Source: Nonomuraea thailandensis
Lineage (GTDB): Bacteria; Actinomycetota; Actinomycetes; Streptosporangiales; Streptosporangiaceae
Direction: 5' to 3'
DNA length: 64,000 bases
NCBI RefSeq assembly: GCF_024172165.1
Contig: NZ_JAMZEB010000002.1
Coordinates: forward strand, 3,493,501-3,557,500
Shown here in pieces: positions 47,838-63,869 of this stretch. A program made the position numbers and the translations under genes. The notes below the pieces were generated by a model. That model was not told the DNA's origin. It saw only the letters and a list, made by a program, of their open reading frames with translations, and made no database searches. Positions within the stretch are counted from its first letter, which is position 1. Each line of letters opens with the position of its first letter.

Positions 47838-49226
47838 TCAGCCGAGCTTCCTGGGGGTCGCGCGAGCGCCGTAGTGGACGTACTCCTCGCCGGTGGGCAG
47901 CGAGTAGAACGTCACCGGAGCCCACGACTCCATGCCCTCGGGGCGGACGGCGTACATGCCCGGCGAGACCGGGATCAGCTCGTACGTCTCCACCTGCTCG
48001 CCTTCGAGCTCGGCCAGGGGACCCATCAGCGTGGTGCGCAGGGTCGGCTTGCCGTCCTCCTCGAACACCTCCATGCGCACCGACTCGCGCTCGTAGGTGC
48101 CCGCGTACGGCGTCAGGTCCGTCGTCACCGGCTCGGCCGGCGGCTCGAACGGCGCGGGCAGCCGCACCCCGGCGAGCTCGCTGAAGATCTCGTCGTAGAG
48201 CCCGGCGTAGAGGTCGCGGGTGCTGCCGCCGTTGGTGAGGAGCGCCACCGCGAGGCCGGCCTCCGGCAGGACGCGCAGGAACGCCGCCTGGCCGATGGTG
48301 TTGCCGTCGTGGCCGTGGGCCCGGTGGCCGTTCCAGTCGCAGCGGAACCAGCCGAGGCCCCACGAGTCGCCGAGCAGGTGCTTCTCGGGGCAGTCGGTCT
48401 GGTACGCCGACATCGCCGCGGTGCTCTCCTCGCCCAGCACGCGGGTGCCGCCGGCGGCGAGCCCGCCGGCCAGGTGCATCCGGGCGAAGGCCAGCACGTC
48501 GGTGACGGTGGAGGTGATCAGGCCCGCCGGGCCGACCGAGCGCGGCAGCCCCCACACCGGCGCGACCACGGGCTCCTCGCCGCCCTTGACATGGCCCATG
48601 GCGTGCGCGAAGACCATCGCCTCCTCCGGCAGGGTGGTGGTGTGGGTCAGGCCGAGCGGGACGAAGAGCTTGTCCTTGATCGCCTGGTCCCAGGTCTTGC
48701 CGGTGACGACCTCGATGATCCGGCCGAGCAGGGAGTATCCCGCGTTGCAGTAGGACCAGGTGGCGCCGATGGGGTGGTTCTGCGCGGTGTCGGCCAGCAG
48801 CGCGACGTACTTCTCCAGCGCGTCGTCGCCCCGGCCGGTGTCGGTGAACAGGTCGCCGTCGATGCCGCTGGTGTGGGTGAGCAGGTGCCAGACGGTCACG
48901 GCTGCCGTGATCTCCGGGTCGCGCAGCGCGAACCCGGGGAGGATCTTGGCCACGGGCGTGTCGAGGGCGAACCGGCCCTCGTCCACGAGCTGCATGATCA
49001 CGGTCGCGGTCCACACCTTGGAGATCGAGCCGATCTGCCAGACCGAGTCGGTGCCGGCGGGCTGGCCGGTGCCGGCGTGCAGCACGCCCGTGGCGGCGGT
49101 GACGAGCTCGTCGCCGCCGTCGGCGCCGAGCCGGAGTATGCCGAGCTGGGCGCCGGGGACGCCGTGCTTCCTCGCGAGCTCGTCGAGGCGGCTCTGCCAG
49201 TGGGCCTGGTCGATGGCGCTGGTCAT
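47838..49226 (-). CDS. Serine hydrolase, beta-lactamase/D-aminopeptidase-like (S12), copy 1
   Basis: A 462-residue penicillin-recognising-enzyme-fold hydrolase without a clear signal peptide. The SxxK motif is in WQIGSISKVWTATV, the YxN motif in WSYCNAGYSLLG and the third motif in AHGHDGNTIG. A C-terminal beta-barrel-like domain follows (TDLTPYAGTYERESVRMEVF). S12 relatives include D-aminopeptidases, D-esterases and D-Ala-D-Ala carboxypeptidases that act on D-residues. In this operon it probably hydrolyses imported D-peptides. It overlaps the ABC ATPase gene upstream by 4 bases. Confidence 0.88.
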   Translation of the reverse strand: MTSAIDQAHWQSRLDELARKHGVPGAQLGILRLGADGGDELVTAATGVLHAGTGQPAGTDSVWQIGSISKVWTATVIMQLVDEGRFALDTPVAKILPGFALRDPEITAAVTVWHLLTHTSGIDGDLFTDTGRGDDALEKYVALLADTAQNHPIGATWSYCNAGYSLLGRIIEVVTGKTWDQAIKDKLFVPLGLTHTTTLPEEAMVFAHAMGHVKGGEEPVVAPVWGLPRSVGPAGLITSTVTDVLAFARMHLAGGLAAGGTRVLGEESTAAMSAYQTDCPEKHLLGDSWGLGWFRCDWNGHRAHGHDGNTIGQAAFLRVLPEAGLAVALLTNGGSTRDLYAGLYDEIFSELAGVRLPAPFEPPAEPVTTDLTPYAGTYERESVRMEVFEEDGKPTLRTTLMGPLAELEGEQVETYELIPVSPGMYAVRPEGMESWAPVTFYSLPTGEEYVHYGARATPRKLG

Positions 49227-50011
49227 GTCTGCTCCTTCAGGATCGGGGTGGGAGGCGTGGTGCCTGTGTCCCTGGATGTCCGGTGCGCCGCTCCGGGGAG
49301 TGCGGCGAGGAGATGGCGGGTGTACTCGTGCCGTGGCGTGCCGAGCACCTGCGCGGTGGGCCCGTGCTCGACGATCTCCCCGTTGTGCATCACGGCCACG
49401 CGGTCGGCGACGTAGCGCACCACCGCCAGGTTGTGGGAGATGAACAGCATGGACAGGCCCAGGTCGCGCCGCATGTCGCGGACGAGGTTGAGCACGGCCC
49501 CCTGGACGGAGACGTCGAGCGCCGAGGTGATCTCGTCGGCGAGGATCACCTCGGGCCGGGCGGCGAGCGCCCTGGCCAGCGCGACGCGCTGACGCTGCCC
49601 GCCGGAGAGCCGCCCGGGCAGGTCGCCGGCCCGGGCCGCGTCCAGGTGGACTAGCGCGAGCAGGCGCGCGATCTCCGCCTGGCGGGCCTGCCTGCCGAGG
49701 CGTTGCGGCATGGCCTCGGCGATGCTCTCGCCGACGGTCATGCGGGGGTCGAGCGAGGAGTACGGGTCCTGGAAGACCATCTGCACCGGGCGCACGCGGC
49801 CCTGCCCGGGCACCGGCCGGCCGTCCAGCAGGATCCGGCCGCCGGTCACGGGCGCCAGGCCGACCGCCGCCCGTGCCATGGTGGACTTGCCCGAGCCGGA
49901 CTCGCCGACGAGGCCGACGATCTCGCCGTCGCCGACCTCCAGGCTGACGTCCCTGAGCACGGTGTGCGAGCCGTACCGTACGCGGACGTCGTGGAAGCCG
50001 AGGACGCTCAC
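49223..50011 (-). CDS. Oligopeptide/dipeptide ABC transporter ATP-binding protein (DppF/OppF-like)
   Basis: A 262-residue ATPase from GTG 50011 (GTGA overlap with the preceding gene). Walker A is GESGSGKST, the Q-loop is MVFQDPYSSLDPRMTVGE, the signature is LSGGQRQRVALARAL, and Walker B is ILADEITSALD. The short DppF-type C-terminal region is present without the Cys-rich OppD tail. It is the second ATPase of the dipeptide importer; the first is fused to a permease (next gene upstream). Confidence 0.92.
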   Translation of the reverse strand: MSVLGFHDVRVRYGSHTVLRDVSLEVGDGEIVGLVGESGSGKSTMARAAVGLAPVTGGRILLDGRPVPGQGRVRPVQMVFQDPYSSLDPRMTVGESIAEAMPQRLGRQARQAEIARLLALVHLDAARAGDLPGRLSGGQRQRVALARALAARPEVILADEITSALDVSVQGAVLNLVRDMRRDLGLSMLFISHNLAVVRYVADRVAVMHNGEIVEHGPTAQVLGTPRHEYTRHLLAALPGAAHRTSRDTGTTPPTPILKEQT

Positions 50012-51912
50012 GCGCTCACCTCCTCGGTGCGGGCGGGAAGGGGCTGCCCGGCCTTGTGGCAGGCCACCCGGTTGCCCGCCGGGTCGGCCTCCAGCACGGG
50101 CTCGACCGACCTGCAGTGGTCGTCGGCGAGCGGGCAGCGGGCCGCGAAGGCGCAGCCGGCCGGCACGTGCGCGGGATCGACCGGCAGCCCCGGGATGACG
50201 GAGAGCGGCCGGGTGAGGTCGGTCTCCATGTCCGGCACGGCCGCGACGAGGGCCCGCGTGTACGGGTGCCGGGCCAGCGTCCGCAGGTCCTGCGCGGGCA
50301 GCTCCTCGACGATGCGGCCGGCGTACATGACCAGGACCCGGTCGCACACGTCGGTCACGACCGAGACGTCGTGGCTGATGAGCAGGAGGGCGGCGCCGGT
50401 GTCGCGGCGCACCTCGGCGAGCAGGTCGAGGACCTGCTGCTGGACCGTGACGTCGAGCGCGGTGGTCGGCTCGTCGGCGATGATGAGCCGCGGCGTGCCC
50501 ATGAGACCCATGCCGATCATCGCCCGCTGGCGCATGCCTCCGGAGAACTCGAAGGGGTGCTGCCTGGCGCGCCGCCCGGGCTCGCGGATCCTGACCGCGC
50601 GCAGGCGGTCCACCGCGCGGGCGAAGGCCGCCCGGCGGCTCAGGCCCTGGTGGAAGCGGCTCACCTCGGCCAGTTGCGACCCCACCCGGTGCGTCGGGTT
50701 GAAGGACGTCATCGGGTCCTGGAACACCACGGCCAGCGACGTGCCGAGCCGCTTGCGCAGGGCCGCGGAGTCGCCGGCCGCCAGGAGATCCTCCCCGGCG
50801 AAGGCCAGGTGGCCCGCCTCGACGCGGATCGGCTCCTCGATGAGCCTGGCCACCGCCAGAGCCGTCATCGACTTGCCCGACCCGGACTCGCCGACGACGC
50901 CGACGGCCTCGCCCTCCCGGACGGCGAACGTGACGCCGCGCACCGCGCGGATCGGATTCCCCGCGCCGGCGGGGATCGTCACCCGCAGGTCGTCCACCGA
51001 CAGGACGGCGCCCTCGGCGGGCGCCGTCGCGGCGGGCGCGCGGGTCCCGGCGGCGGTGGTGGTCCCGGCGCGGCCCCGGCGGGCGGCGCCGGTGGCCGCG
51101 CCGAGGCCGAAGGCGGTCGCCAGGGCCTCCCCGGTGAGGTTGAACGCCAGCCCCGCGACGATGACGGCGAAGCCGGGCCCGAGCGCGGCGAGGGGGTTGG
51201 TGTAGATGCCGTTGAGCCCGTCCTGCATGAGCTTGCCCCAGTCGTAGGACGGGGCCTGGACGCCCAGTCCCAGGAACGAGAGCCCGGCGAACGACAGCAG
51301 CACCCCGCCGGCGCTCATCGTCGCGTTGACGATGAGCGGCTCGGCGATGTTCGGCAGCACGTGGCGGCGCAGGATGCGAAGCCGGCTCACGCCCGCGATC
51401 CGGGCCGCGGCGACGTAGTCCCGTTCCGAGACGCCGGCGATGAGCGTGTGGCACAGCCGCGCGAACGACGGCGCCCCCGCGAGCCCCACCGCGAGCGCCG
51501 CGCCGCTCTCGCCGACGCCGAAGACGACGGCGAAGAAGAGCACGAGCAGCAGCCCGGGGAAGGCCACCAGCACGTTGACGGCCCACGTGACGAGGCGGCC
51601 CAGCCGCGGCCCGGCCAGCATCGGCGCGGCCCCCAGGACGAGGCCCAGCACGATGCTGATCGCCGTCGCCCCGAGCGCCAGCACGATGGAGAGCCGGGTG
51701 GCTACGAGCACCCGGTAGAACAGGTCCCGGCCGAGGTTGTCGGTGCCGATCCAGTGCTCGGCCGACGGGCCGGCGAGCAGGTTGCCCGTGTCGACGACCG
51801 TCGCCCGCTCGCCCCACAGGATCGGCCCGAGCAGGGCCACCGACAGGACGACGACCAGCAGGCCGAGCCCGGCCAGCCCGACGGGACGGCGCAGAAGGTG
51901 TGCCGCGCGCAT
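50008..51912 (-). CDS. Fused dipeptide ABC permease (DppC-like) and ATPase (DppD-like)
   Basis: A 634-residue fusion. Residues 1-270 form a DppC-type permease: signal-anchor helix (VGLAGLGLLVVVLSVALLGP), HWIGTDNLGRDLFYRVLVAT, the EAA loop DYVAAARIAGVSRLRILRRH and FLGLGVQAPSYDWG. An Ala/Gly/Thr-rich linker of about 40 residues follows. From about 300 to the end there is a DppD-type ATPase: Walker A GESGSGKS, signature FSGGMRQRAMIG, Walker B LIIADEPTTALD, and the OppD-type Cys-rich tail CAFAARCPLADDHC. Such fusions occur in actinobacteria. With DppB and the binding protein it completes one importer. Confidence 0.9.
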   Translation of the reverse strand: MRAAHLLRRPVGLAGLGLLVVVLSVALLGPILWGERATVVDTGNLLAGPSAEHWIGTDNLGRDLFYRVLVATRLSIVLALGATAISIVLGLVLGAAPMLAGPRLGRLVTWAVNVLVAFPGLLLVLFFAVVFGVGESGAALAVGLAGAPSFARLCHTLIAGVSERDYVAAARIAGVSRLRILRRHVLPNIAEPLIVNATMSAGGVLLSFAGLSFLGLGVQAPSYDWGKLMQDGLNGIYTNPLAALGPGFAVIVAGLAFNLTGEALATAFGLGAATGAARRGRAGTTTAAGTRAPAATAPAEGAVLSVDDLRVTIPAGAGNPIRAVRGVTFAVREGEAVGVVGESGSGKSMTALAVARLIEEPIRVEAGHLAFAGEDLLAAGDSAALRKRLGTSLAVVFQDPMTSFNPTHRVGSQLAEVSRFHQGLSRRAAFARAVDRLRAVRIREPGRRARQHPFEFSGGMRQRAMIGMGLMGTPRLIIADEPTTALDVTVQQQVLDLLAEVRRDTGAALLLISHDVSVVTDVCDRVLVMYAGRIVEELPAQDLRTLARHPYTRALVAAVPDMETDLTRPLSVIPGLPVDPAHVPAGCAFAARCPLADDHCRSVEPVLEADPAGNRVACHKAGQPLPARTEEVSA

Positions 51913-51913
51913 C

Positions 51914-52924
51914 TCAGGCGGCTCCGATCGTCGAGCGGGGGTCGAGCAGCGCGAGCAGCACGTCGACGAGGGTGTTGATGAGCAGGACCCCGACGCCGTA
52001 GACCAGGACGGTGCCCTGCACCAGGGGATAGTCCTTGGCGACGATCGAGGAGACGATCGTGGAGCCGAGGCCGGGCCAGGCGAAGACGTTCTCCACGAGC
52101 ACCGTCCCGGCCACGAGGGAGCTCAGCAGCATGCCGCCGAGCGTCAGGCTCGCCGTCACGGCGTTCGGCAGGGCGTGCACGAGCTGCACCCGCACGGGGG
52201 TGAGCCGCTTGGCCCGCGCCGTCCGGATGTAGTCGGCCTCCATCACGGCCAGCATCTCGACGCGCACGATGCGCGAGAGCACCGCGGCGGGGCCGATCGC
52301 CAGCGCGAGCGTCGGCAGCACGTAGGAGTTCCAGTCGTCGAGGCCCGCCACCGGGAAGAGCCTGGTCTGCACCGCCAGCAGGTAGACGAGCCCGACGGCG
52401 AGCAGGAAGTCGGGGATCGCGCTCAGCACGACGCTCGTTCCCGTGAACGCCAGCTCCGTACGCCGGCCCTTCCCGCGCCGCGTGATCACGGCCATCACCA
52501 CGCCCACCGGCACGGCGACGAGCAGCGACAGGACGAACGCGGCCACGGCGAGCTGCACCGTCGCCGGCAGCCGCTGGCCGATCATCTCGCTCACGGGGAG
52601 CCTGCTGGTGATCGAGACGCCCAGGTCGCCCTGGAGCAGGCGCCCGAGGAAGCCGGCGTACTGCTGCCAGAGCGGGTCGAGCAGCCCGAGCTCCTCCTTC
52701 GTGGCCTGCACCAGGTCCGCGGGGGCGGTCGGCCCGAGCGCGGCCCGCACCGGATCGCCCGGGACCAGGTGGATCATCAGGAACGAGGCGGTCACCAGGA
52801 CCCAGAGGGCCAGCAGCAGCCGTCTCGCCCGCCGCAGCGCGAAGCGGAACCACGGGTGCGACCACAGCCCGGCCGCCCTGCTCGCGAGGCCGGGCGGGAC
52901 GGCCGCCGGCGTTGAGCTCTTCAT
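51914..52924 (-). CDS. Dipeptide ABC transporter permease (DppB-like)
   Basis: A 336-residue permease, one base upstream of the fused gene. The N-terminal helix and the loop LVPGDPVRAALGPTA are typical of DppB/OppB. The EAA coupling loop is MEADYIRTARAKRLTPVRVQ and the end reads DVLLALLDPRST. About six hydrophobic helices are visible. It forms the channel with the DppC half of the fusion. Confidence 0.92.
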   Translation of the reverse strand: MKSSTPAAVPPGLASRAAGLWSHPWFRFALRRARRLLLALWVLVTASFLMIHLVPGDPVRAALGPTAPADLVQATKEELGLLDPLWQQYAGFLGRLLQGDLGVSITSRLPVSEMIGQRLPATVQLAVAAFVLSLLVAVPVGVVMAVITRRGKGRRTELAFTGTSVVLSAIPDFLLAVGLVYLLAVQTRLFPVAGLDDWNSYVLPTLALAIGPAAVLSRIVRVEMLAVMEADYIRTARAKRLTPVRVQLVHALPNAVTASLTLGGMLLSSLVAGTVLVENVFAWPGLGSTIVSSIVAKDYPLVQGTVLVYGVGVLLINTLVDVLLALLDPRSTIGAA

Positions 52925-52928
52925 ATCG

Positions 52929-54530
52929 TCAGCCGAGCATCCGGATGCTGGTCGGGACGATGCTGCCGATGATGGAGAGCTTCGCGCCCTTGACGAACGT
53001 CGGGACCACGTTGTTGGCGAACGGCACCACGTCGGCCGCCTTGTAGAGCGCCTGCTCGGCGGCGAACCAGTCCTTGCAGCCCTCGGAGCCGTTGGCGCTC
53101 ATCCCCTTGGTGGCGTGGGCGAGGTAGTCGGCGTTGTCGATGGAGGCGAAGTTGGTGCCCTTCGGGGCGGTGGTGCCGGAGACGAACGGCATGACCTGGT
53201 CGGGGGTGCTGACGTTGAGCGGCATCCAGACGATGTCCCAGGCGCCGGTGCCGAAGACCGCGCCGGACGCCTCGGTCTGGGTCTGCTGCTTGGCCGTGAC
53301 CTCGACCCCTGCCGCCTTCCACGCCGCCACCGCGAGCTCGGCCGCGGCGCCACCGCCGGTGCCGAGCGAGTTCGGGTAGATGAAGGTGAGCGAGAGCTTC
53401 TTGCCGTCCTTGGCGCGGATGCCGTCCGGCCCCTTCGTCCAGCCGGCGGCGTCGAGGGCGGCCCCGGCGGCGGCGACGTCGAAGGACGGCACGTGGCCGG
53501 TCACGGCGTCGCCGACGCAGCCGAGCGGCTCCAGGGCGGCGAGCTGGGTCGGCGGCGCGCCCTTGCCGGAGGTCAGCGCGATCTGGAGCTGCTTGAGGTC
53601 GAGCGCCTGGGTCAGCGCCATGCGCACGGCCGGGTCGGCGGTGGCGTGGCCGTCGCCCTGGTTGTACCACTGCTCGCCGATCAGCGCCTGCATGCCCACG
53701 GACTCCAGGCCCGCCCTGGCCAGGCGGTCGGCGTCCGGGCCGGTGATCTGGACGGCGCTGATGGTGCCGGCCAGCAGCTCGTTGGCGGAGGTGGTCTCAT
53801 TCGCGACGATCTTGACGACCACCTTGGCCGGCATGCCCGCCTCGGCCGTGGTGGCGCCGCCGGGGCCCCACGTGTAGCCCTTGCGCAGCTCGTAGGTGTA
53901 GCGGGTCGACGGGACCGCCTCGGTGAGGACGTACGGGCCGGTGCCGTTCGTCCCGGCCTTGAGGGTGGAGCGGTCCTTCATGCCGGCGTCGCACACCATC
54001 GGCAGGTTCGCCAGCGAGGTCAGCACGAAGGGGGCCGGCGTGGCGAGCTTGAGGGTGACCGTCGAGCCCGAGGCGGAGGCGGTCGTTCCCGCCGGGATGA
54101 AGACGCCCAGGAACGGGCTCTTGTTGTCCGGGTTCACCACGTACGTGATGTTGTCGACCACGGTCTTCGCCGTGAACGCCGTGCCGTCGGCGCAGGTGAT
54201 CCCGTCCTTGAGCTGGAGGGTGATCGTGCTGCCGTCGACGGTCCACGACGCGGCGAGCTGCGGCTGGATCGAGCCGTCCGCCGCGACCGACACCAGGTTG
54301 TCGTAGGCGTACTGCGTCAGGCCGAACAGGGCGCTGGTCGCCGATCCCTGCGGGTCGAGGGCGCCCGGGTCCGAGGCGAGGTTGAGCGTGAACGTCTTGC
54401 CGCCGGCGTAGGCGGCGGAGGCGCCCGGCGCGGCGGTGCCGGGCGCGCCGCTGCCGCAGGCGGCCAGGCCGAGCGAGCCGGTCAGCGTCAAGGCGAGCGC
54501 CGCGAGGGCCCTCGTGCGGGTGGGGGTCAT
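52929..54530 (-). CDS. Peptide ABC transporter substrate-binding lipoprotein (family 5)
   Basis: A 533-residue family 5 solute-binding protein. Signal: RTRALAALALTLTGSLGLAA followed by the lipobox Cys (LAAC at about residue 25). The mature N-terminus, KTFTLNLASDPGALDPQGSA, and later WTVDGSTITLQLKDGITCAD, are typical of DppA/OppA-like proteins. Ligand specificity cannot be read, but operon partners suggest D-amino-acid-containing di- or oligopeptides. The gene follows the first S12 hydrolase gene by 37 bases. Confidence 0.9.
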   Translation of the reverse strand: MTPTRTRALAALALTLTGSLGLAACGSGAPGTAAPGASAAYAGGKTFTLNLASDPGALDPQGSATSALFGLTQYAYDNLVSVAADGSIQPQLAASWTVDGSTITLQLKDGITCADGTAFTAKTVVDNITYVVNPDNKSPFLGVFIPAGTTASASGSTVTLKLATPAPFVLTSLANLPMVCDAGMKDRSTLKAGTNGTGPYVLTEAVPSTRYTYELRKGYTWGPGGATTAEAGMPAKVVVKIVANETTSANELLAGTISAVQITGPDADRLARAGLESVGMQALIGEQWYNQGDGHATADPAVRMALTQALDLKQLQIALTSGKGAPPTQLAALEPLGCVGDAVTGHVPSFDVAAAGAALDAAGWTKGPDGIRAKDGKKLSLTFIYPNSLGTGGGAAAELAVAAWKAAGVEVTAKQQTQTEASGAVFGTGAWDIVWMPLNVSTPDQVMPFVSGTTAPKGTNFASIDNADYLAHATKGMSANGSEGCKDWFAAEQALYKAADVVPFANNVVPTFVKGAKLSIIGSIVPTSIRMLG

Positions 54531-54567
54531 GCGGGGTCCTTATTCCGGAGGGTGTGAGCGGGAGATC

Positions 54568-55947
54568 TCAGGCGCGGGCGACCACACGGCCGTAGTGCAC
54601 GTACTTCGCCAGGCCCGCGTCGTCGCGGCCGATGAAGGCGAAGACCAGGTGGATGCCTTGGGTCGGTTCGAGCGAGATCAGCGAGTCACCCTCGAAGGCC
54701 ACGAGCTGAGCGCGCATCGGCTTCCCGCCGATCTCGGCGATGATGTCCTTGGGCACCCGGTCGAGCCAGATCGCGCCGTCGGCGTCCTGGCTGACGGTGA
54801 TGTCGTAGATCGTGTCGGAGTAGCGGCCCAGGTAGGGGGCCGGGTCGATCGTCCCGGGCTCGGCCGGCGGCACGGGGCGGCCCGGCAGGGCGACGCCGGT
54901 GAGCTCCTTGAGCAGGTGCGCCAGCACGTCGGTGAAGATGCCGAAGACGTCGCCGCCGTTGGTCAGCAGCGCGATCGCCACGCCGTGCTCGGGCGCGACC
55001 CGCAGGAAGGCCGCCTGGCCGATCGTCCCGCCGTCGTGGCCGACGACGGTGTGCCCGTCGTGCTCCTCGATCTCCCAGCCGAGCCCCCACGCGGTGCCCA
55101 TGCCGGCGAGCCGGGGCAGCTTCACCTGCGGCTGCCACATGGCGGCCACGGTGCCGGGCCGCAGCACGGCGGAGCCGTCCGGCGCGGCGCCGCCGGCCAG
55201 GTGCATGGCGACGAAGGAGAGCAGGTCGCGCGGGGTCATGGCGAGCATCGAGCCGGCCGGGGCGTTGGAGCGGGCCAGCGCCCAGACCGGCGCCGCAACC
55301 GGCTCGCCGTCCTCGCCCGGCACGTGGCCGACGGCGGCGCGGTGCAGGATCGCCTCGTACGGGCTCGGCGCGACGTGCGTGAGCCCGAGCGGCGCGACCA
55401 GCCGCTCGGCCAGCACCTCGTCGAACGGCTTGCCGCGCAGCACCTCGACCAGGCGGCCGAGCACCACGAAGCCGGTGTTGTTGTAGGAGAACACCTCGCC
55501 CGGCGCGAAGAGCTGCGGGATGTCGTGGATCGAGGCGAGGTACTTCTCGACCGCGTCGTCACCCCGCCCGGTGTCGGTGAAGATGTCGCCCTCGAAGCCC
55601 GCGACGTGGCACAGCAACTGCCGGGTGGTGATCGCGGAGGCCGCGGCCTCGTCGCCGACGCGGAACTCCGGCAGGTACGTCCGCAACGGCGCGTCCAGGT
55701 CGACCAGGCCCTCGTCGGCGAGCTGCATGACCAGCGCGCTGGTCCACAGCTTGGTGATCGAGCCGATCTGGAAGAGCGAGTCGGTGGTCACCTCGACGCC
55801 GGTGGCCCTGCTCAGGACACCGCCGGCGGCGGTGAGCACCTGGCCCTGGGTGAGAACGGCGACCGAGGCGCCCGGCACCCCGCGCTCGGCCACGATCTGC
55901 GCGAAGTGTTCGTCAAGCCAGCTCTGCACACTTTCCGGCGACATCAT
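54568..55947 (-). CDS. Serine hydrolase, beta-lactamase/D-aminopeptidase-like (S12), copy 2
   Basis: A 459-residue paralogue of the enzyme at 47838-49226, and the first gene of the operon. SxxK is in FQIGSITKLWTSALVMQLAD, YxN in FSYNNTGFVVLG and the third motif in VVGHDGGTIGQAAF. The C-terminal domain (TIDPAPYLGRYSDTIYDITV) is like that of copy 1. No signal peptide is visible, so it probably acts on imported material. The start is ATG 55947 or the next ATG 55944; a ribosome-binding site is not evident. Having two divergent copies in one operon suggests two peptide or ester specificities. Confidence 0.88.
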   Translation of the reverse strand: MMSPESVQSWLDEHFAQIVAERGVPGASVAVLTQGQVLTAAGGVLSRATGVEVTTDSLFQIGSITKLWTSALVMQLADEGLVDLDAPLRTYLPEFRVGDEAAASAITTRQLLCHVAGFEGDIFTDTGRGDDAVEKYLASIHDIPQLFAPGEVFSYNNTGFVVLGRLVEVLRGKPFDEVLAERLVAPLGLTHVAPSPYEAILHRAAVGHVPGEDGEPVAAPVWALARSNAPAGSMLAMTPRDLLSFVAMHLAGGAAPDGSAVLRPGTVAAMWQPQVKLPRLAGMGTAWGLGWEIEEHDGHTVVGHDGGTIGQAAFLRVAPEHGVAIALLTNGGDVFGIFTDVLAHLLKELTGVALPGRPVPPAEPGTIDPAPYLGRYSDTIYDITVSQDADGAIWLDRVPKDIIAEIGGKPMRAQLVAFEGDSLISLEPTQGIHLVFAFIGRDDAGLAKYVHYGRVVARA

Positions 55948-56150: not shown

Positions 56151-57419
56151 TCAGCCGTTGGCCTTCCGCCAGGCGGAATGGTGGAGTCGGGCCTTACCCA
56201 GCGCCCAGGTCCGTGCGGTGGCAGGAGTCTTGTCCTCCCGCAGGCCCTCCAGCGTTCGGAGCATGCCCTCGGCGAAGGTGCGGCCGAGAGGGGTGCACCC
56301 GCCGGCCGCCAGCAATTGCTGAGTGACCACGAACGTGACCTCTCGCCAACGAGCGAAACGCGCCGCCGCAATCAGGCTGCCGGTCCGCTGCCACTCATGA
56401 CGCCAGAACAAGGCGATGCCCAGATGCGCATACGCGCCGTGGAACAGACTGAGGAACGGGCGCGGGTCGGGGCGCCAAGGAGCGTAGAAGAGGCCATGGG
56501 CGCCGGGACGTACCAAAGTGAACATCGTCATCAGTGCGTTCAGTTTCAGATGCTGCGTTTCGTGCACGAAGGTTTCCGCCGCCTGTGTGCCGTCCTGGGG
56601 GAGCGATAGCGCCACGCAGCCGAAAGCGGCCCGGCAACTGGCGCTCGCGTGCCCGCCGACCCGGGATTTCACCGGCGTGAGCACCTTTATGGCTGCGAAC
56701 ACCTCTGCCGCAGCCGCGGGATGATGAGCCGACAGGAGATCGGCACCCTCGCGCAGCCTCGACTGCCACGTGCCGAAGTCACGGGGCTGAACGGTCGCCC
56801 GCTGCCCGGGCTGGAAGGGGAACCCCGTGGCGTCGGTGTCGTCGAAGCGCACCTCCCAGGCGCCCTCACCGAGGGCCAGGTTGCGGATGTGCCTGCGGCC
56901 GGGAACCAGTCCGCCGGTGAAGGTAAGTGCTCCATCCCGGGCTCGAAGGACGTACGGGGTGCGATCCGCGGCACCAGGCACATCGTAGACTCCGTAGGAG
57001 GGGACGGCCAGGGTGTCACGCTCGGTGAGCGTGGCGAGGGTGAGTTCGGTCCGGGCCCGCCTGGCGGCCGCCAGCGCCAGCACCGCCAGCCTCTCCGGCC
57101 GGCCCTTCCGTGGATCCCCGGATCGCAGGGCATCAAGGGTCGCATGACCCCACAGCCCGACTGAGGGGTACCCGAGTACGCTCTTCACACACCCGTAGTG
57201 GTCGCGGCCCGACTCGATCAGCGCCGCGTAGCCTTCCGCCGCAACGCTCTTCTGGTCGCAGCTCGGCAGATCGTCGACCGCTTCGGCGATCCCACGGAAG
57301 AGCAGCAACTGTTTACTGAACTCGGCCGCGGCCAGCACCTCGACAGCCGTTGCGCCCCCTCCACCGTGACTCAGCTCGAGAAAGCTTTTCCGAGCGAGAG
57401 TGTGCAGGCCCGGCCTCAT
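56151..57419 (-). CDS. HExxH-motif peptide-modification protein (aKG-HExxH-type beta-hydroxylase)
   Basis: A 422-residue protein. The HExxH motif is in ETFVHETQHLKLNALM (His286, Glu287, His290), followed by LFYAPWRPDPRPFLSLFHGA and YAHLGIALFWRHEW, with a further His as possible third ligand. This is the pattern of the HExxH peptide-modification family found beside FxSxx-COOH and other RiPP genes, whose characterised members are iron/2-oxoglutarate peptide beta-hydroxylases. In many FxS clusters this domain is fused to FxsB in an inactivated form; here it is separate and the motif is intact. ATGA overlap couples it to the radical SAM gene upstream. Confidence 0.85.
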   Translation of the reverse strand: MRPGLHTLARKSFLELSHGGGGATAVEVLAAAEFSKQLLLFRGIAEAVDDLPSCDQKSVAAEGYAALIESGRDHYGCVKSVLGYPSVGLWGHATLDALRSGDPRKGRPERLAVLALAAARRARTELTLATLTERDTLAVPSYGVYDVPGAADRTPYVLRARDGALTFTGGLVPGRRHIRNLALGEGAWEVRFDDTDATGFPFQPGQRATVQPRDFGTWQSRLREGADLLSAHHPAAAAEVFAAIKVLTPVKSRVGGHASASCRAAFGCVALSLPQDGTQAAETFVHETQHLKLNALMTMFTLVRPGAHGLFYAPWRPDPRPFLSLFHGAYAHLGIALFWRHEWQRTGSLIAAARFARWREVTFVVTQQLLAAGGCTPLGRTFAEGMLRTLEGLREDKTPATARTWALGKARLHHSAWRKANG

Positions 57420-58657
57420 GCCGGTACCGCGCTTGATCTCGCGAGATCCGTGCCGACACGGGCCTTGATGTGGTGAATCAAGCGATAGAGATCTGGACAG
57501 TACACGGATGGATTCGCAAACCCCGCCCCCTCTTTATATCGGTGTGGATAGAAACCGCCCCCGCAGATCCACCGGAGGGTGCAGGAACGGCAGAGAGGAG
57601 CCAATGCCGCCAAGCCCAATTGCTGGGCCACCACCTGTCGCTCACGTAAGGCCGCATCGAAGGGATCGCGCAAGACATTGCGACCCGACCGTTTCACGCC
57701 AGGCCGGGACGTCTTGAGCACATCCCCCTGTTCGATGCCGCCATCGGTCTCCACGATGACGGTCCGATGGGGAGCGAGGCCCACTCCTTGGGCGGCGGCA
57801 CGTCCGCCGAGGAGCAGATTCACGATACCGGCCAGGAATCGCACGGTCACGGTCGTTCGGGTTCCCCCGTACCACAATTCGAAGATTTCGATGAGCCAAT
57901 CGGCGTAAGGTGTCGCAGGATCACCTTGCACGCGGCCGGGCGGGGGAACAGACCAGTGACCGTGCGGCAGGAGGAAATCGACCATGGGCGGGTCGTATTC
58001 GAGCAGTCCCTTGTACACGCTGGTCGCGTCGGTCCGCGGATCGATGACACAGAGCAGCCCGCCGAAAAGGTGCCGGTAGGACGGTGAAATCAGTCTGCGG
58101 ATTCCAGCCGCCACGAGGTCGTGGCTGCCCCCACCGTTCGGCGTCCGGCGATGACGGTTGTGCGCCGTCGCATCACCGTCCAGACTCACTCCCACCCGCA
58201 CGTCGTTGCGCTTGAACAACTGCAGGTACGGCTCGTGCAATCTCATGCCGTTGGTCTGGACGGTCATTTCCACATGTGCAAGATCGCCTGTCGCCCGCCT
58301 GATCAGCTCGATGATCTGAGCCAGGTCATGTGGCGTGCGAAGCAGCGGCTCGCCTCCGTGCAAGACGACCCTGACGTGTGTCAGGCGATGTCTCTCGGCA
58401 TGCTCGGCGATGCGTGCGGCGGCACGTGCGGCGACGGTGAGCGACATGATGCGGGGCTGGGTCCGCCAGCGTTGGTCGGCGGATCGATAGACATAGCAGT
58501 AATCGCATGCCAGATCGCACCGGCCATGTACTTTGAGTACGAATTCCTGGAACGGCGTGGGCCGCCAGCCGGTTGCCAGTAACGCGTCAATGTCAAGGTT
58601 CTCCGGCCAGTTGTCCGGTGTCTTGGAGCCGGCTCGCTGATCGCGGGCACCGCCCAT
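57416..58657 (-). CDS. fxsB: FxsB-family radical SAM/SPASM peptide maturase
   Basis: A 413-residue radical SAM enzyme. The cluster motif is C47-x3-C51-x2-C54 in HGRCDLACDYCYVYRSAD, followed by the SAM-binding GGEPLL. The segments PTPFQEFVLKVHGRCDLACD and VQTNGMRLHE are typical of FxsB. A SPASM-type C-terminus has Cys356, Cys359, Cys365 and Cys387 (CRSCTLRWICGGGFYPHRYK). The enzyme class forms three-residue cyclophane crosslinks in FxSxx-COOH peptides. The precursor gene starts about 195 bases away on the opposite strand, so they share an intergenic promoter region. Confidence 0.92.
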   Translation of the reverse strand: MGGARDQRAGSKTPDNWPENLDIDALLATGWRPTPFQEFVLKVHGRCDLACDYCYVYRSADQRWRTQPRIMSLTVAARAAARIAEHAERHRLTHVRVVLHGGEPLLRTPHDLAQIIELIRRATGDLAHVEMTVQTNGMRLHEPYLQLFKRNDVRVGVSLDGDATAHNRHRRTPNGGGSHDLVAAGIRRLISPSYRHLFGGLLCVIDPRTDATSVYKGLLEYDPPMVDFLLPHGHWSVPPPGRVQGDPATPYADWLIEIFELWYGGTRTTVTVRFLAGIVNLLLGGRAAAQGVGLAPHRTVIVETDGGIEQGDVLKTSRPGVKRSGRNVLRDPFDAALRERQVVAQQLGLAALAPLCRSCTLRWICGGGFYPHRYKEGAGFANPSVYCPDLYRLIHHIKARVGTDLARSSAVPA

Positions 58658-58852: not shown

Positions 58853-59023
58853 ATGACGGAGGACAGCGATGACCTGGTCGCCGAACTGCCAGATATCTCC
58901 AGCCTCGACCTCGATCAAGTCGCGTCACTGGCGAACCCCATGCTGGCCATGCTGTTGAGCCGGTTCCTGGCCGACCGATCCGGTTCGGACGCCCAGTGGG
59001 TCGGCTTCCAGGACGGATCCTAG
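58853..59023 (+). CDS. fxsA: FxsA-like RiPP precursor peptide, variant C-terminus FQDGS
   Basis: A 56-residue peptide from ATG 58853 (GGCGGATC upstream; a TTG 33 bases earlier is less likely). The leader reads MTEDSDDLVAELPDISSLDL, then DQVASLANPMLAMLLSRFLA, which has the length, acidic character and L-D/L-x-x-L spacing of FxsA leaders. The core ends W-V-G-F-Q-D-G-S. Canonical members end F-x-S-x-x; here position 3 is Asp. A Phe-Gln-Asp unit still fits the aromatic-X-X pattern of a three-residue cyclophane, with the crosslink expected at Asp beta-carbon. That is inference from the family. Confidence 0.85.
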   Translation: MTEDSDDLVAELPDISSLDLDQVASLANPMLAMLLSRFLADRSGSDAQWVGFQDGS

Positions 59024-59234: not shown

Positions 59235-62200
59235 ATGACGAAGCCTGCCGAGGTACCTCACGTCCAGCGAGTGATCGCTTTTCACGCGCGACGCGACGGA
59301 TGCGGGCGATCGATGACGCTGTGCAATGTCGCACTCATCCTCGCCGCGGACGGGTACAGAGTGTTGGTCGTTGATGTCACCACTGGTGAGCCCGGGGTCA
59401 GCGCCTTTCTTCAGCAGTACACGCCTCCCGGAGAGATCGGCACCGGACGGGCCGTTTCGCTCGCACTGAGCTTGAGCGGCGGCATTCACGTGCGGCGGGT
59501 CGTGTGGCAGAGCGACGCCTGCCATGCGAGCACACTGCGAGCAGAGTGTGCGGCATATGACTACGTCCTGGTGGACGTTCCTCGATCCACTGCCGACGAC
59601 GTTCGCAGTTTCACCGCGGCGCTCTGCGACAGTGTCGTGCTGTGCTTCCCGCCGACGCCGCGCGCCTTGGAAGAGGCCGGCGAAGAGCTGACCTGGTTCG
59701 AGAGGGCATCCGTTGGTCGTATCGTGCCCGTCCTGATGAGGGTGGACCCCAGCGCGGGTGACGGCCTGGCTGAGGTGCGGCAGGTTGCGAAGAGCCGCTT
59801 CGGTATCGCGGGTGCCTGCCTGGAGATTCCTTACCGGGCAGAGTACTCGGCTTCGGAAGGGCTCGCCGTGCTGCTGGAACCTCCTGGAGCACCCCAGGAA
59901 CTGCGGGCCGCCTACGAAAGACTAGCCAGCTCGCTCACCGGCAGCGAGAGCCTGGCCACGAGGCAGATCACCATCGTCTACGCTTCCCGGCGGCGGATCT
60001 GGGCGGAGTGGCTCGGCGCCCTCTGCGCTCGGTATGGAGTGAGCACCCAGCTGGTGGCCCAGTACAAGATCGGCCGTGCTCCTATCCCGGTGGACCAGCA
60101 GGTGCTCGTGATCCACTCGGACGACCTCGATGCCATGGCCGTTCGCCAGTTCGGGGAGCAGGGAACGGTCCTAGTCCGGACGGACGACGAACCTGTTCCG
60201 GCGGAACTGGCCCGCCTGCCCGCCTTGGATCTCCATCAGACGGAGGAGAAGGACGCCCCCGCCCTGCTCGCCTCGGTGCTCGGTCTGGGGCCTCTGCCTC
60301 TGCTCGTGGACTCGGAGGGCGGCCCGCCGAGGTATCCCAGTGCCGCCCAGCCGCCGATCGGGCTGACGCTTGATCACCGCTTCGAGGGACGCGATGAGCT
60401 GCTGGAAGAGTTGCGTGTCGCCCTTGCGCCGGCGAGCAGCTGCTATGTCGCGCTCAGCGGCCCCGGGGGCATCGGCAAAACCCAGAGCGCGCTTGAGTTC
60501 GTGCAGCGTTTCCATTCCTCCTACGACGTGGTGGTCTGGATCAACGCCATGCAGTACCTCGGCTTCCGCACGGGTCTGACCAGGCTGGCGAAGAGGTTGA
60601 AACTGCACACCTTCGTTGATCTGCAGGAGGCGGTGAGCCAGGAGTTGGCGTCGGGAACCGGCCGCCGGTGGCTGGTCGTCTGTGACGGAGTACGTGATCC
60701 AGAGGAGTTGATGAGGGCACTGCCGCTGCCGGAGGCGGCTACCGGAAGTGTCGGTCACGTTCTCGTCACTGGACGAACGGCGCAATGGCCCGAGCCCTTC
60801 CACACCATCTCCATCGACGCGATGAGCCTGGCTGACGCCGTCTCGCTGTTACGGACGAGACTCGCCACGTTGACCGACAGAGCCGCGCAACGCGTCGCTG
60901 AGACGGTCGAACGTCTGCCACTGGCGCTCGATCTCGCGGGTGCTTGGCTCGCCGCCCGTAGCCGTCAGAGCACCGGTCGCGCCCGGGACAGCATGTCGGC
61001 GCCGGTCGGCACCGGTGAGGCGGAAGAACGCATCGTCGAAGACTTCATCGAGCACTTTGAGGAGCGGAGACTCCAGCACATCGCCCGGTACGGACAGCAA
61101 CCGTCCGTCTATCACACCCTGGCAGACCTGGCGCTGCTTGAGCTGGCCGACGGCCCAGCAGGCGCTGCCGGCGTCTGGCTGGTCGAGGTGTTCGCCTTCC
61201 TGTCGTCGAGGGGGGTTCAGCCGGCTCTCCTGCGCTCGCCGCACATGACGGTGGAGATGCAGAAGGTCGACCGGCGGCTCGCCGAGGCGTCGTTCGTCGA
61301 CGTCGCGCTGCGGGAAGCGGACCGTTACGGCCTGATCCGCGCCGAGCTGGGGCGCGCTGAAGAGCGCATCCGCATGCAACCGATCCTGCGGGAAACGGTG
61401 ACCGAACGGTTGGGTCTGCAAGGAACGCTCGAACTGCGACGCCTCGAGGTAGCGCGCGTCCTGGCGCGGACGGCTCCTCGCTACATGGAGAACATGGACG
61501 CCGACACCAAGGGAGTGTTCGAGGAGCTCGACCGCCATCTGGGCACCTTGAACGTGCTGGCCGCTCCCATGCCGGAAGACGTGTGGCGCTGGGCGTTGGC
61601 CCAGCTCAAGTTCCGGTTGCTCGACAACCACCACGATTCGGTACGGCGGGTTCTCCGCCATGCGGAAGTGGGTCGGCGGGTGCTCGAATCCGAGGACGGG
61701 CGGCGGATGCTGGGCGCCTCGGAAAGCGAGCTCCACGCGGAGCTGCGTGCGGAGTTGCTGCTGATCCAGGCTCGAGCTCACCTGCGGCTGGGACAGGGCC
61801 GCAGGACGGTCGAGCTCGGGAGCGCCGCGTTGGAGGAGCTCGTCCGCGTGCACGGTCCACTGCATCCCGTTGTGCTGGAAGGCACCGGCGCCGTCGCGTA
61901 CGGGCTGCGTTCGACCGGCGACTTCGAACTGTCCTACGACAAGTCCGCCTCAGCGCTGCAGGGTCTGAGAAAACTGTTCGGCGCCAACCATCCGGCAGTC
62001 GGGAGGGCGATGAACAACCACGCTCTCGCCGCGGGCCTGATGGGGCATTACACGGAAGCCGTGCGGCTGGCCGAAGAGCGAATCGCCCGCCGGTCACGAC
62101 TGCACGATGACAATGATCCATTCGTCCTCGGCACTGCCTGCAACCTGGCCTACTTCCTGCGTGAGCTGGGAGAGCACGAGAATGCCAGAGTTCGTCTGCT

Positions 62201-62840
62201 GGACGTCCTGAAACGGTTGCAGTATGTCTCCGATCCGGCTCATACGGAGAGGATCTCCGCGCGGCTCGGTCTCCATGTGATAAAGCGCCGGATGGGAGGT
62301 GTCGACGATCTGGTCCTGGAGGGTCGCCGGCTCCTCACAGAAGCCATCCTAGCGTTCGGTGAATCCGGCGCGCTGACCCTCTGCTGTGAAGTGAGTCTCG
62401 GTGCCGACCTCTTCGCCGTGGGCCGGTACCCGGACGCAGTCGCACACGCAGGGCAGGCTCTGGGGCATCTGCAGGAAGAGTTGGGCGCCGACCATCCCTT
62501 CACGCAGGTCTGCCGGGGCAACCTGGGTGTCTATCTGCGCATGGTCGATCAGATCGAGGAGGCATTCGAGCATGGCTTCGTAGCCGTGCGCACCCTCTTG
62601 GACAAAGTGGGTGATTTGCACCCTTTGTATCTGGCGGTGGCGGCCAACCATTCCGGCACACTCGTGCAACTGGATCGGCGTGAAGAAGCCTTTGAGCTGG
62701 AAAACGATATTTTGGATGGCCTAACCTTGGTGTACGGGGATGGGCATCCTCGAACCGAGGCCGTAGCGATCAATCTCGATGTCACACGTCTGCGCCAAGA
62801 GGACAACAGGCAGGTCATCGACATAGAAATACCAGGCTAG
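59235..62840 (+). CDS. fxsT: FxsT-like multidomain protein: MinD-like, NB-ARC and TPR
   Basis: A 1201-residue protein. Residues about 14-235 form a MinD/ParA-like domain (VIAFHARRDGCGRSMTLCNV), in which the deviant Walker motif lacks the first Lys. A short alpha/beta domain follows (240-345, TIVYASRRRIWAEWLGALCA), TIR-like in pattern. From 385 to about 650 there is an NB-ARC/STAND NTPase: FEGRDELLEEL, Walker A GPGGIGKT (409-416), WLVVCDG, then LPLALDLAGAWLA. The C-terminal half is tetratricopeptide repeats (ELHAELRAELLLIQARAHLR; FGANHPAVGRAMNNHALAAG; ADHPFTQVCRGNLGVYL). This is the layout of FxSxx-COOH system TPR proteins. Its role is unknown; a STAND-type sensor or regulator is likely. Confidence 0.85.
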   Translation: MTKPAEVPHVQRVIAFHARRDGCGRSMTLCNVALILAADGYRVLVVDVTTGEPGVSAFLQQYTPPGEIGTGRAVSLALSLSGGIHVRRVVWQSDACHASTLRAECAAYDYVLVDVPRSTADDVRSFTAALCDSVVLCFPPTPRALEEAGEELTWFERASVGRIVPVLMRVDPSAGDGLAEVRQVAKSRFGIAGACLEIPYRAEYSASEGLAVLLEPPGAPQELRAAYERLASSLTGSESLATRQITIVYASRRRIWAEWLGALCARYGVSTQLVAQYKIGRAPIPVDQQVLVIHSDDLDAMAVRQFGEQGTVLVRTDDEPVPAELARLPALDLHQTEEKDAPALLASVLGLGPLPLLVDSEGGPPRYPSAAQPPIGLTLDHRFEGRDELLEELRVALAPASSCYVALSGPGGIGKTQSALEFVQRFHSSYDVVVWINAMQYLGFRTGLTRLAKRLKLHTFVDLQEAVSQELASGTGRRWLVVCDGVRDPEELMRALPLPEAATGSVGHVLVTGRTAQWPEPFHTISIDAMSLADAVSLLRTRLATLTDRAAQRVAETVERLPLALDLAGAWLAARSRQSTGRARDSMSAPVGTGEAEERIVEDFIEHFEERRLQHIARYGQQPSVYHTLADLALLELADGPAGAAGVWLVEVFAFLSSRGVQPALLRSPHMTVEMQKVDRRLAEASFVDVALREADRYGLIRAELGRAEERIRMQPILRETVTERLGLQGTLELRRLEVARVLARTAPRYMENMDADTKGVFEELDRHLGTLNVLAAPMPEDVWRWALAQLKFRLLDNHHDSVRRVLRHAEVGRRVLESEDGRRMLGASESELHAELRAELLLIQARAHLRLGQGRRTVELGSAALEELVRVHGPLHPVVLEGTGAVAYGLRSTGDFELSYDKSASALQGLRKLFGANHPAVGRAMNNHALAAGLMGHYTEAVRLAEERIARRSRLHDDNDPFVLGTACNLAYFLRELGEHENARVRLLDVLKRLQYVSDPAHTERISARLGLHVIKRRMGGVDDLVLEGRRLLTEAILAFGESGALTLCCEVSLGADLFAVGRYPDAVAHAGQALGHLQEELGADHPFTQVCRGNLGVYLRMVDQIEEAFEHGFVAVRTLLDKVGDLHPLYLAVAANHSGTLVQLDRREEAFELENDILDGLTLVYGDGHPRTEAVAINLDVTRLRQEDNRQVIDIEIPG

Positions 62841-62855
62841 CTAGGGGCGGAGACC

Positions 62856-63869
62856 ATGGGTCTTTCCGGGAAAGATCGGGACGCCGGTGCGGCTTTCTCC
62901 GCTGCGGAGCAGCACCCGCTGAAAGACCGTCTCACCGTCAACAGGGCAGGTCATGCGAAGGCGCCCGCCTACAGCGAGCTCCTCCGGCTCTGCCTGGACT
63001 CCATGATCGATATTTCTGGCCCGCACTGTCTCATGTATTTCAATGGAGGATTCCGGGACTTCACCATTGATCTGTTCGACCACCCCGAGGTGTCCGATCC
63101 AGATGCCGCGGGCACGCTGCGGGAGAAGTGTGTCCGCGCTTTTCGCCGGTTCATTTTGGTTTACGAGCGCATGGAGTGGCTGCTGGATCCGCTGCGGACC
63201 GGTGGACTCATCCGAATCGCGCTCCGGACCGGCACGGGCCTGATCGTCTGTGGCCGGGTCCGCGCCGAGGAGTACATCGTTGGGATGTCTTCCCCTGTCC
63301 GCGCACCGGATCGCGTCGACTGGCGGTTGTGCGAACTCATCACCGCGATCCGGACCGGGTTGTACGAATTACCCGATGAGAACCCCGGTGGATATCACGG
63401 ACGGCGGAGCGAGAGCGCCCAGTCGGCCGAGATCACCTTCCGCCGGGCTCCGGATGCCTCACCGTCCGTTCAGGAACTGCTCAAGGAGCAGCTCAATGTG
63501 AACGACCTGCATTATGTTGCTCTGATCCGCGACCGGCAGCCCGTCATGGAAGCCGACGTGTTCAACAGTTCGGCGGTCTCACATCTGTTCAACAGCATCA
63601 CGACCGCCCACCGGAGAACCCTCTACGGTGAGTTCGCCCACCGAGGCCGTGGCGACCTGGCTCACCTGCACCGGGCCGTCCGTGACATCATCGGTGGCCC
63701 GGCCGAGAGAGTCGTGCTCGATCTCGAATCCGGAGCGATCTACGTCGAGCGACTGGGCAGCTCGAACGACCTGCTGCTCGGGGTCACCTTGGAGCAGTCC
63801 GCGGTCGAATCGTGTGACGGGCGCATCGCGCGTCTCAGAGGGCAGTTGAAGGACACGCCGGAAACGTAG
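62856..63869 (+). CDS. Unrecognised protein linked to the FxS system
   Basis: A 337-residue protein starting 15 bases after fxsT, with GGGCGGAG before the ATG. No family is recognised. Two halves can be seen. The first (about 40-180) has LCLDSMIDISGPHCLMYFNG and ALRTGTGLIVCGRVRAEEYI, an alpha/beta pattern. After a disordered linker, the second half has LNVNDLHYVALIRDRQPVME, then LHRAVRDIIGGPAERVVLDL and ESGAIYVERLGSSNDLLLGV, which resembles a Roadblock/LC7-like fold. Close spacing implies co-expression with fxsT. It could be a partner of the NTPase; no catalytic motif is seen. Confidence 0.7.
   Translation: MGLSGKDRDAGAAFSAAEQHPLKDRLTVNRAGHAKAPAYSELLRLCLDSMIDISGPHCLMYFNGGFRDFTIDLFDHPEVSDPDAAGTLREKCVRAFRRFILVYERMEWLLDPLRTGGLIRIALRTGTGLIVCGRVRAEEYIVGMSSPVRAPDRVDWRLCELITAIRTGLYELPDENPGGYHGRRSESAQSAEITFRRAPDASPSVQELLKEQLNVNDLHYVALIRDRQPVMEADVFNSSAVSHLFNSITTAHRRTLYGEFAHRGRGDLAHLHRAVRDIIGGPAERVVLDLESGAIYVERLGSSNDLLLGVTLEQSAVESCDGRIARLRGQLKDTPET

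Follow-up and report, generated by a model that had tools for sequence, protein, structure and literature searches.

Enzymes of the type to which FxsB belongs are reported to follow a ring-to-i+2 rule, and the links named for them in the available portion of PMC11002830 are Trp-Arg and Trp-Asn (XncB), Trp-Asn and Trp-Asp (OscB), Phe-Asn (XncB or OscB), Phe-Ser (MscB, IPR026335, characterised for this link), Tyr-Asp (YxdB), His-Ala (HaaB), and both Tyr-Arg and His-Arg (YhhB). That portion names neither Phe-to-Asp nor His-to-Asp cyclophanes. According to the excerpt available of PMC12636437, the HExxH enzyme ChlH acts after ring closure, hydroxylating Asp and His on the finished cyclophane. A role of such peptides as signals or toxins has been predicted for related systems in the section of PMC7159879 on standalone systems. 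Here we describe a cassette of this kind from Nonomuraea thailandensis, in which the third core residue of the precursor is Asp.

FxsA-like precursor and cassette genes

The window, that is the whole stretch of 64,000 nucleotides analysed, carries the following features.

58853..59023, + strand: FxsA-like precursor, 56 aa, MTEDSDDLVAELPDISSLDLDQVASLANPMLAMLLSRFLADRSGSDAQWVGFQDGS; ATG at 58853, stop ending at 59023 (from ORF and profile)
58997..59005, + strand: W49-V50-G51 codons of the precursor core, invariant in three genera
59006..59014, + strand: F52-Q53-D54 codons, predicted cyclophane unit with a putative crosslink; Q and D invariant in three genera, F replaced by H in one ortholog
57416..58657, - strand: FxsB-type radical SAM/SPASM peptide maturase, 413 aa (TIGR04269, 434.2 bits, cut-off 370)
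56151..57419, - strand: aKG-HExxH peptide beta-hydroxylase, 422 aa, motif HETQH (TIGR04267, 156.1 bits, cut-off 40)
59235..62840, + strand: FxsT-like protein, 1201 aa (NF040586, 479.2 bits, cut-off 300; Pfam; conserved layout)
62856..63869, + strand: 337-aa protein, conserved partner downstream of the FxsT-like gene, predicted Roadblock/LC7-like fold

An ORF ending in FQDGS had been proposed at 58853-59023 in a preliminary description; it lies at these coordinates and has 56 codons. The leader covers about residues 1-48 and is followed by the core W49-V-G-F52-Q53-D54 and by G-S56, the C-terminus being WVGFQDGS. Asp had rightly been recognised as the third core residue of a tail read F-Q-D-G-S; Trp49, placed four residues before the Phe, in fact lies three residues before Phe52.

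The precursor is encoded beside an FxsB maturase gene (fxsB, 57416-58657(-)), which lies on the opposite strand, 195 bases from the precursor ORF, and whose product is a member of TIGR04269 over the cut-off, with C47, C51 and C54 forming the CxxxCxxC motif. We take IPR026335 to be the FxsB entry. The closest solved relative of the window FxsB by sequence is ChlB (PDB 9gm3, E 2e-67), and the YhhB maturase model NF041707 gave 340.1 bits, below its cut-off of 445. The HExxH gene overlaps the end of fxsB. Its product belongs to TIGR04267, H286, E287 and H290 are invariant in 91 of 91 rows, and its first solved relative is PDB 22nu (E 2.6e-35), an entry whose deposited name is radical SAM core domain-containing protein, the second being ChlH (8s5f, E 1.9e-4). 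Farther along this strand, past the HExxH gene (49223-55947 (-)), are what we presume, by eye from their motifs, to be dipeptide-type ABC transporter genes and a gene for a hydrolase of the beta-lactamase fold.

The FxsT-like protein, a member of NF040586 (FxSxx-system TPR protein), comprises a MinD/ParA-like N-terminus, a weak TIR-like part, an NB-ARC-type NTPase and TPRs. The MinD/ParA-like N-terminus (59235-60380 (+)) has an altered P-loop, RRDGCGRS (RRDGVGRT in the ortholog L011), and the TIR_2 match in the N-terminus, ahead of the NB-ARC part, is weak (E 0.058). The FxsB, HExxH and FxsT genes, all over curated cut-offs, agree with the FxS-type genome context claimed earlier. The 337-aa protein had no match in Pfam or NCBIfam. 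Its model from four sequences (pLDDT 69, pTM 0.76; residues 1-37 and 49-84 poor) matched structures of the Roadblock/LC7 type along some 130 residues (best match E 4.9e-4, probability 1.00), MglB being among the matches with E about 0.01, and a Roadblock/LC7-like fold is predicted from this model.

A leave-clade-out precursor profile, made from 81 non-redundant precursors with the three sequences of the window clade excluded, ranked the window precursor first among the 915 window ORFs (28.9 bits, E 3.7e-8; runner-up 10.0 bits, E 0.03), with a mild circularity in that the 81 precursors had been collected with a profile partly seeded by the window clade. Devoid of its last nine residues, the precursor still scored 22.5 bits with this profile, and in the shuffled-precursor control 189 of 200 shuffles were reported, with a top score of 5.5 bits. 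The TIGR04268 (FxSxx-COOH) model, with a cut-off of 28 bits, gave no match at E<=10 with the window peptide and no match with the L049 ortholog; the L011 ortholog passed it with 38.2 bits, a result separate from the home-built profile. Since the FxS-ending peptides L008, L014 (25.8 bits) and L019 (16.1 bits) also fall below this cut-off, TIGR04268 misses true members and is not decisive. With Asp in third place, the window peptide lacks the canonical C-terminal F-x-S-x-x, and the YxD-tail RiPP model NF041709 gave it 13.5 bits (E 0.056) against a cut-off of 55. The earlier view of the leader as FxS-type is supported by the leave-clade-out profile and by the L011 ortholog passing TIGR04268. Judged by leader sequence and context, the window precursor is FxsA-like, and not a canonical FxSxx-COOH peptide. 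A nearby canonical FxSxx precursor, the finding that the preliminary description held would contradict it, was looked for with precursor profiles and not found; other window ORFs matched these profiles at chance level only (E 0.03 and worse), and L009, which extends 12.5 kb beyond the window end, gave no precursor-profile match at E<=5.

Orthologs and variation at the third core residue

A sequence search of 296 genomes of the phylum with the single precursor returned only the window precursor itself, and tblastn of a plasmid collection gave no match. Because a single precursor is too short and diverged, relatives were then traced through fxsB. The FxsB proteins nearest to that of the window are those of L011/L048 (67% identity) and L049 (65%), the three orthologous loci representing three genera. 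Both ortholog precursors adjoin fxsB in divergent orientation, that of L011 ending in EPRWVGHQDST and that of L049 in DPFWVGFQDGP. The alignment of the three sequences has 15 invariant columns out of 56, with 10 in the 48-column leader as against 5 of 6 in W49-D54 (hypergeometric 0.0039 for this region, which was picked after inspection; the last eight columns taken as the region give 0.026). Thus, the core W-V-G-[F/H]-Q-D is retained across three genera while the leader drifts.

When 341 family genomes were searched with the ortholog alignment, three strong matches (E about 1e-30) were obtained, all of them rows of the model, the next match having E 1.4e-6. Some match at E<=0.1 was present in 95 of the 341; part of these are other FxsA-like peptides and part, lying inside long frames, are probably due to chance. 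This search scored at most 19 candidates per genome, so that some WVG[F/H]QD precursors may be missed. A search of 394 class genomes gave matches at E<=0.001 in 8, and Asp stood at the third core position in none of the five loci that were new.

We paired 109 FxsB rows (two of less than 300 residues having been dropped) with the nearest precursor, which gave 100 pairs, of which 97 were assigned a core by eye; L054, L034 and L039 were excluded from the assignment, their motif being unclear or multiple. A regular expression for the core was rejected, as it misassigned several rows, and was replaced by assignment by eye. In this sample, which is biased towards relatives of the window FxsB, the third core residue was S in 62 of the 97 pairs, N in 17, A in 8, D in 5, Q in 3 and T in 2 (S 54, N 16, A 8, D 5, Q 3 and T 2 when counted by the 88 distinct tails). 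The ring residue was F in 88 pairs, H in 7 and Y in 2, and the commonest middle residue was Gln (31/97). FxD is rare within a family that is variable at the third core residue. The five Asp cases are the window, the L011 and L049 orthologs, L149 and Streptomyces L038 (YED). The other three FxsB systems of the window's genome have the cores FQQ, FDN and FDS. It had been claimed that the peptide would extend the substrate range of FxsB; any such extension is milder than claimed, since S, N, A, D, Q and T all occur as third residue in the 97 pairs and Tyr-Asp, Trp-Asp, Phe-Asn and Phe-Ser links are reported for the enzyme type in the available part of PMC11002830.

Several other precursors were seen on the way. 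L149 (5678-5965 (-)) is a second FxD lineage with the canonical layout, its tail ...VVAGFQD having Asp as the C-terminal residue. Streptomyces L046 (HYEDAP) reached only E 0.056 with the precursor profile and remained unpaired, and it matched the YxD model at E 2.1e-9, below the cut-off. A related precursor of G410 (L119:1468-1683 (+)) has the core LFVGFQN, a form close to WVGFQD, and passes TIGR04268 with 33.1 bits.

It is very improbable that Asp is a decayed or non-functional variant in a peptide no longer crosslinked. Asn is common at the third place (17/97) and is converted to Asp by one base change in its codon, and the FxD form is rare; but Q-D is invariant in three genera though their FxsB proteins are only 65-67% identical to that of the window, and the FxsB and HExxH enzymes keep their motifs. 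The observation at 58853-59023 is sound as that of a rare, apparently maintained variant of the known FxsB-system peptide type.

A quick maximum-likelihood tree was made from 108 FxsB rows (L043, the outgroup's twin, excluded), and in it the FxsB of the window and those of its two orthologous loci formed one clade (SH-aLRT support 100), nested in a clade of 15 rows (97). Wider DNA was compared for 14 of these 15 rows, together with L146 of G410, which has the core FVGFQN and lies outside the clade. These 15 loci all have the precursor, a long FxsT and the 337-aa gene running in one direction and fxsB in the other, and the HExxH gene lies beside fxsB in 13, L097 being at a contig edge and L083 giving no match. 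In seven other loci (L079, L080, L088, L006, L007, L008 and L149) the FxsT open frame has 860-892 residues, as compared to 1203-1255 in the clade layout, the FxsT match to the window protein starts no earlier than residue 380, and the precursor is located on the far side of FxsT; L007 had no HExxH match. The precursor is within 400 bases of fxsB in 28 of the 109 rows. Some of these (L164, L179, L029, L031, L032 and Streptomyces loci) fall outside the clade, so that closeness to fxsB does not by itself mark the clade. Within the 15-row clade, L054, L057, L060 and L073 have precursors with unusual SNDY or STDY motifs and further acidic tails.

Clade-specific changes in FxsB were considered, and rejected, as a sign of co-adaptation to Asp. 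E290Q, T324S, R345Q and N/T234H are common to the three FxsB and absent in 101 comparison rows. However, in a control count of shared changes at near-invariant sites the window clade has four, as compared with 6, 4, 3, 3, 2, 2, 2, 1, 0, 0 and 0 in the other 11 clades with a stem of 0.2 or more; these changes were not counted as evidence, because similar numbers occur in other long-stem clades and there is no excess over some of them. Shared by the Asp-type lineages and less frequent in other rows were a few mild differences (V43, R96, V214, L347).

Predicted modification and role of the peptide

We consider it likely that the precursor is the substrate of the divergently encoded FxsB, that it becomes a Phe-Gln-Asp cyclophane, probably hydroxylated, and that the product has a role in a conflict system. 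FxsB would recognise the leader and use its 5'-deoxyadenosyl radical to abstract a hydrogen at Cbeta of Asp54; bonding of this carbon to the ring of residue 52 (Phe, or His in one ortholog) would close a three-residue Phe-Gln-Asp cyclophane with a change of -2 Da. The HExxH enzyme would then probably hydroxylate a residue of the ringed core, namely Asp54, Gln53 or the aromatic residue (+16 Da), and the processed C-terminal peptide would most likely act with the adjacent NB-ARC/TPR protein as a conflict-system signal or toxin. Asp is favoured as the crosslink partner because Q-D is kept in three genera. The cyclophane reading is supported by FxsB and HExxH proteins which are over their cut-offs with motifs intact and have ChlB/ChlH among their solved relatives, as well as by the leave-clade-out profile, the largely invariant core and the shared layout (14 of 14 clade rows), and the replacement of F by H at the ring position is in keeping with HaaB and YhhB, relatives that use His according to the available portion of PMC11002830. 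By analogy, a Phe-Asp or His-Asp link would be a natural extension of the reported links. Counting against this explanation, the window peptide has neither a TIGR04268 match nor an FxSxx motif, only three strong WVG[F/H]QD matches were found in 341 family genomes with at most 19 candidates scored in each, and the FxsB changes of the clade do not show co-adaptation to Asp.

Modification of Trp49 had also been suggested, with the remark that WVG has Gly in third place. The Trp is indeed conserved, but W-V-G as a standard three-residue cyclophane was rejected, since Gly51 has no Cbeta. An aromatic residue three places before the ring residue is present in 11 of 96 assigned precursors (FVGFQN, FLGHNS and FVQHQS among them), which together with the conserved Trp49 points to recognition or to a second link. 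The main modification might even lie at Trp49, as a Trp-to-Asp or Trp-to-Gln macrocycle or a bicycle fused with Phe52, Phe/His52 being a spacer. The three genera share an unchanged W-V-G but differ at the ring position (F or H), and L119 (FVGFQN), L120 (FLGHNS) and L115/L121 (FVQHQS) have an aromatic residue at the same place. Such a Trp-centred modification is nevertheless quite unlikely, as 85 of the 96 assigned precursors have no aromatic residue there, Gly51 cannot be the Cbeta partner, and the reported rule is i to i+2 (available portion of PMC11002830).

FxsB may crosslink the core as above while Gln53, not Asp, is the site of cleavage or hydroxylation by the HExxH enzyme, so that the core is released or trimmed; we hold this to be possible, although on the unlikely side. 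Gln53 is invariant in the clade, Gln being the commonest middle residue (31/97), and two enzymes of the HExxH type, PflC and PosC, hydroxylate Gln residues with oxidative cleavage of the backbone according to the available part of PMC12636437. Moreover, a zincin-like metallopeptidase is predicted to free the C-terminal peptide in the section of PMC7159879 on standalone systems, which we would equate with the HExxH protein. Against this, the residues hydroxylated by ChlH, an HExxH enzyme that has been characterised and has a radical SAM partner, are Asp and His (same part of PMC12636437).

A more far-reaching version of the preferred cyclophane reading, which we regard as unlikely, is that WVG[F/H]QD is a dedicated signal, in which a Phe-Asp or His-Asp cyclophane is accompanied by Trp49 as a recognition or second crosslink site. 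Such a ligand would switch the MinD/TIR-like/NB-ARC/TPR protein together with its Roadblock-like partner in an NLR-like conflict system, core and sensor co-diversifying.

If the predicted link forms, FxsB-family enzymes would accept a carboxylate residue at the crosslinked Cbeta, with Phe or His as the ring partner. One genome with four FxsB systems having Q, N, S and D as third residue would be a convenient set for determinants of enzyme specificity, and the conserved cassette is a clean case for testing what such peptides do.

Comparison with known systems

Among the matches listed, an FxD core was not named in the titles and abstract openings of the FxsB, triceptide and cyclophane literature, which leaves its absence unproven; nor is it named in the portion available of the section of PMC7159879 on standalone systems. 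The word 'roadblock' is absent from the main text of that paper. The layout of the window cassette is known in outline, because the same section describes standalone peptide-processing systems with an AP-ATPase and an inactive MinD/ParA-like domain, the same kind of cassette in actinobacteria.

ChlB/ChlH of Chlorogloeopsis, a fused radical SAM and aKG-HExxH enzyme, contains the closest solved relative of the window FxsB; as far as the available description goes it makes several cyclophanes, whereas the window has separate genes and one predicted ring. The YxD-tail cyclophane RiPPs (NF041709; YxdB, Tyr-Asp) have Asp as crosslink partner in the third position, as predicted for the window, but with Tyr in place of Phe/His, and the window peptide scores 13.5 bits against their cut-off of 55. 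The FxSxx-COOH triceptide systems (FxsA TIGR04268, FxsB TIGR04269) share with the window an FxsB over the cut-off, the same leader family, and HExxH and FxsT partners. In contrast to them, the window has Asp as third core residue, F or H as the ring residue and a Trp three places before it; its precursor adjoins fxsB in divergent orientation, whereas theirs lies about 3-5 kb off beyond fxsT; and its FxsT is longer and is followed by the Roadblock-like protein. The novelty is Asp with interchangeable Phe/His, a fixed Trp and a Roadblock-like cassette partner, in a triceptide variant whose general peptide type is known.
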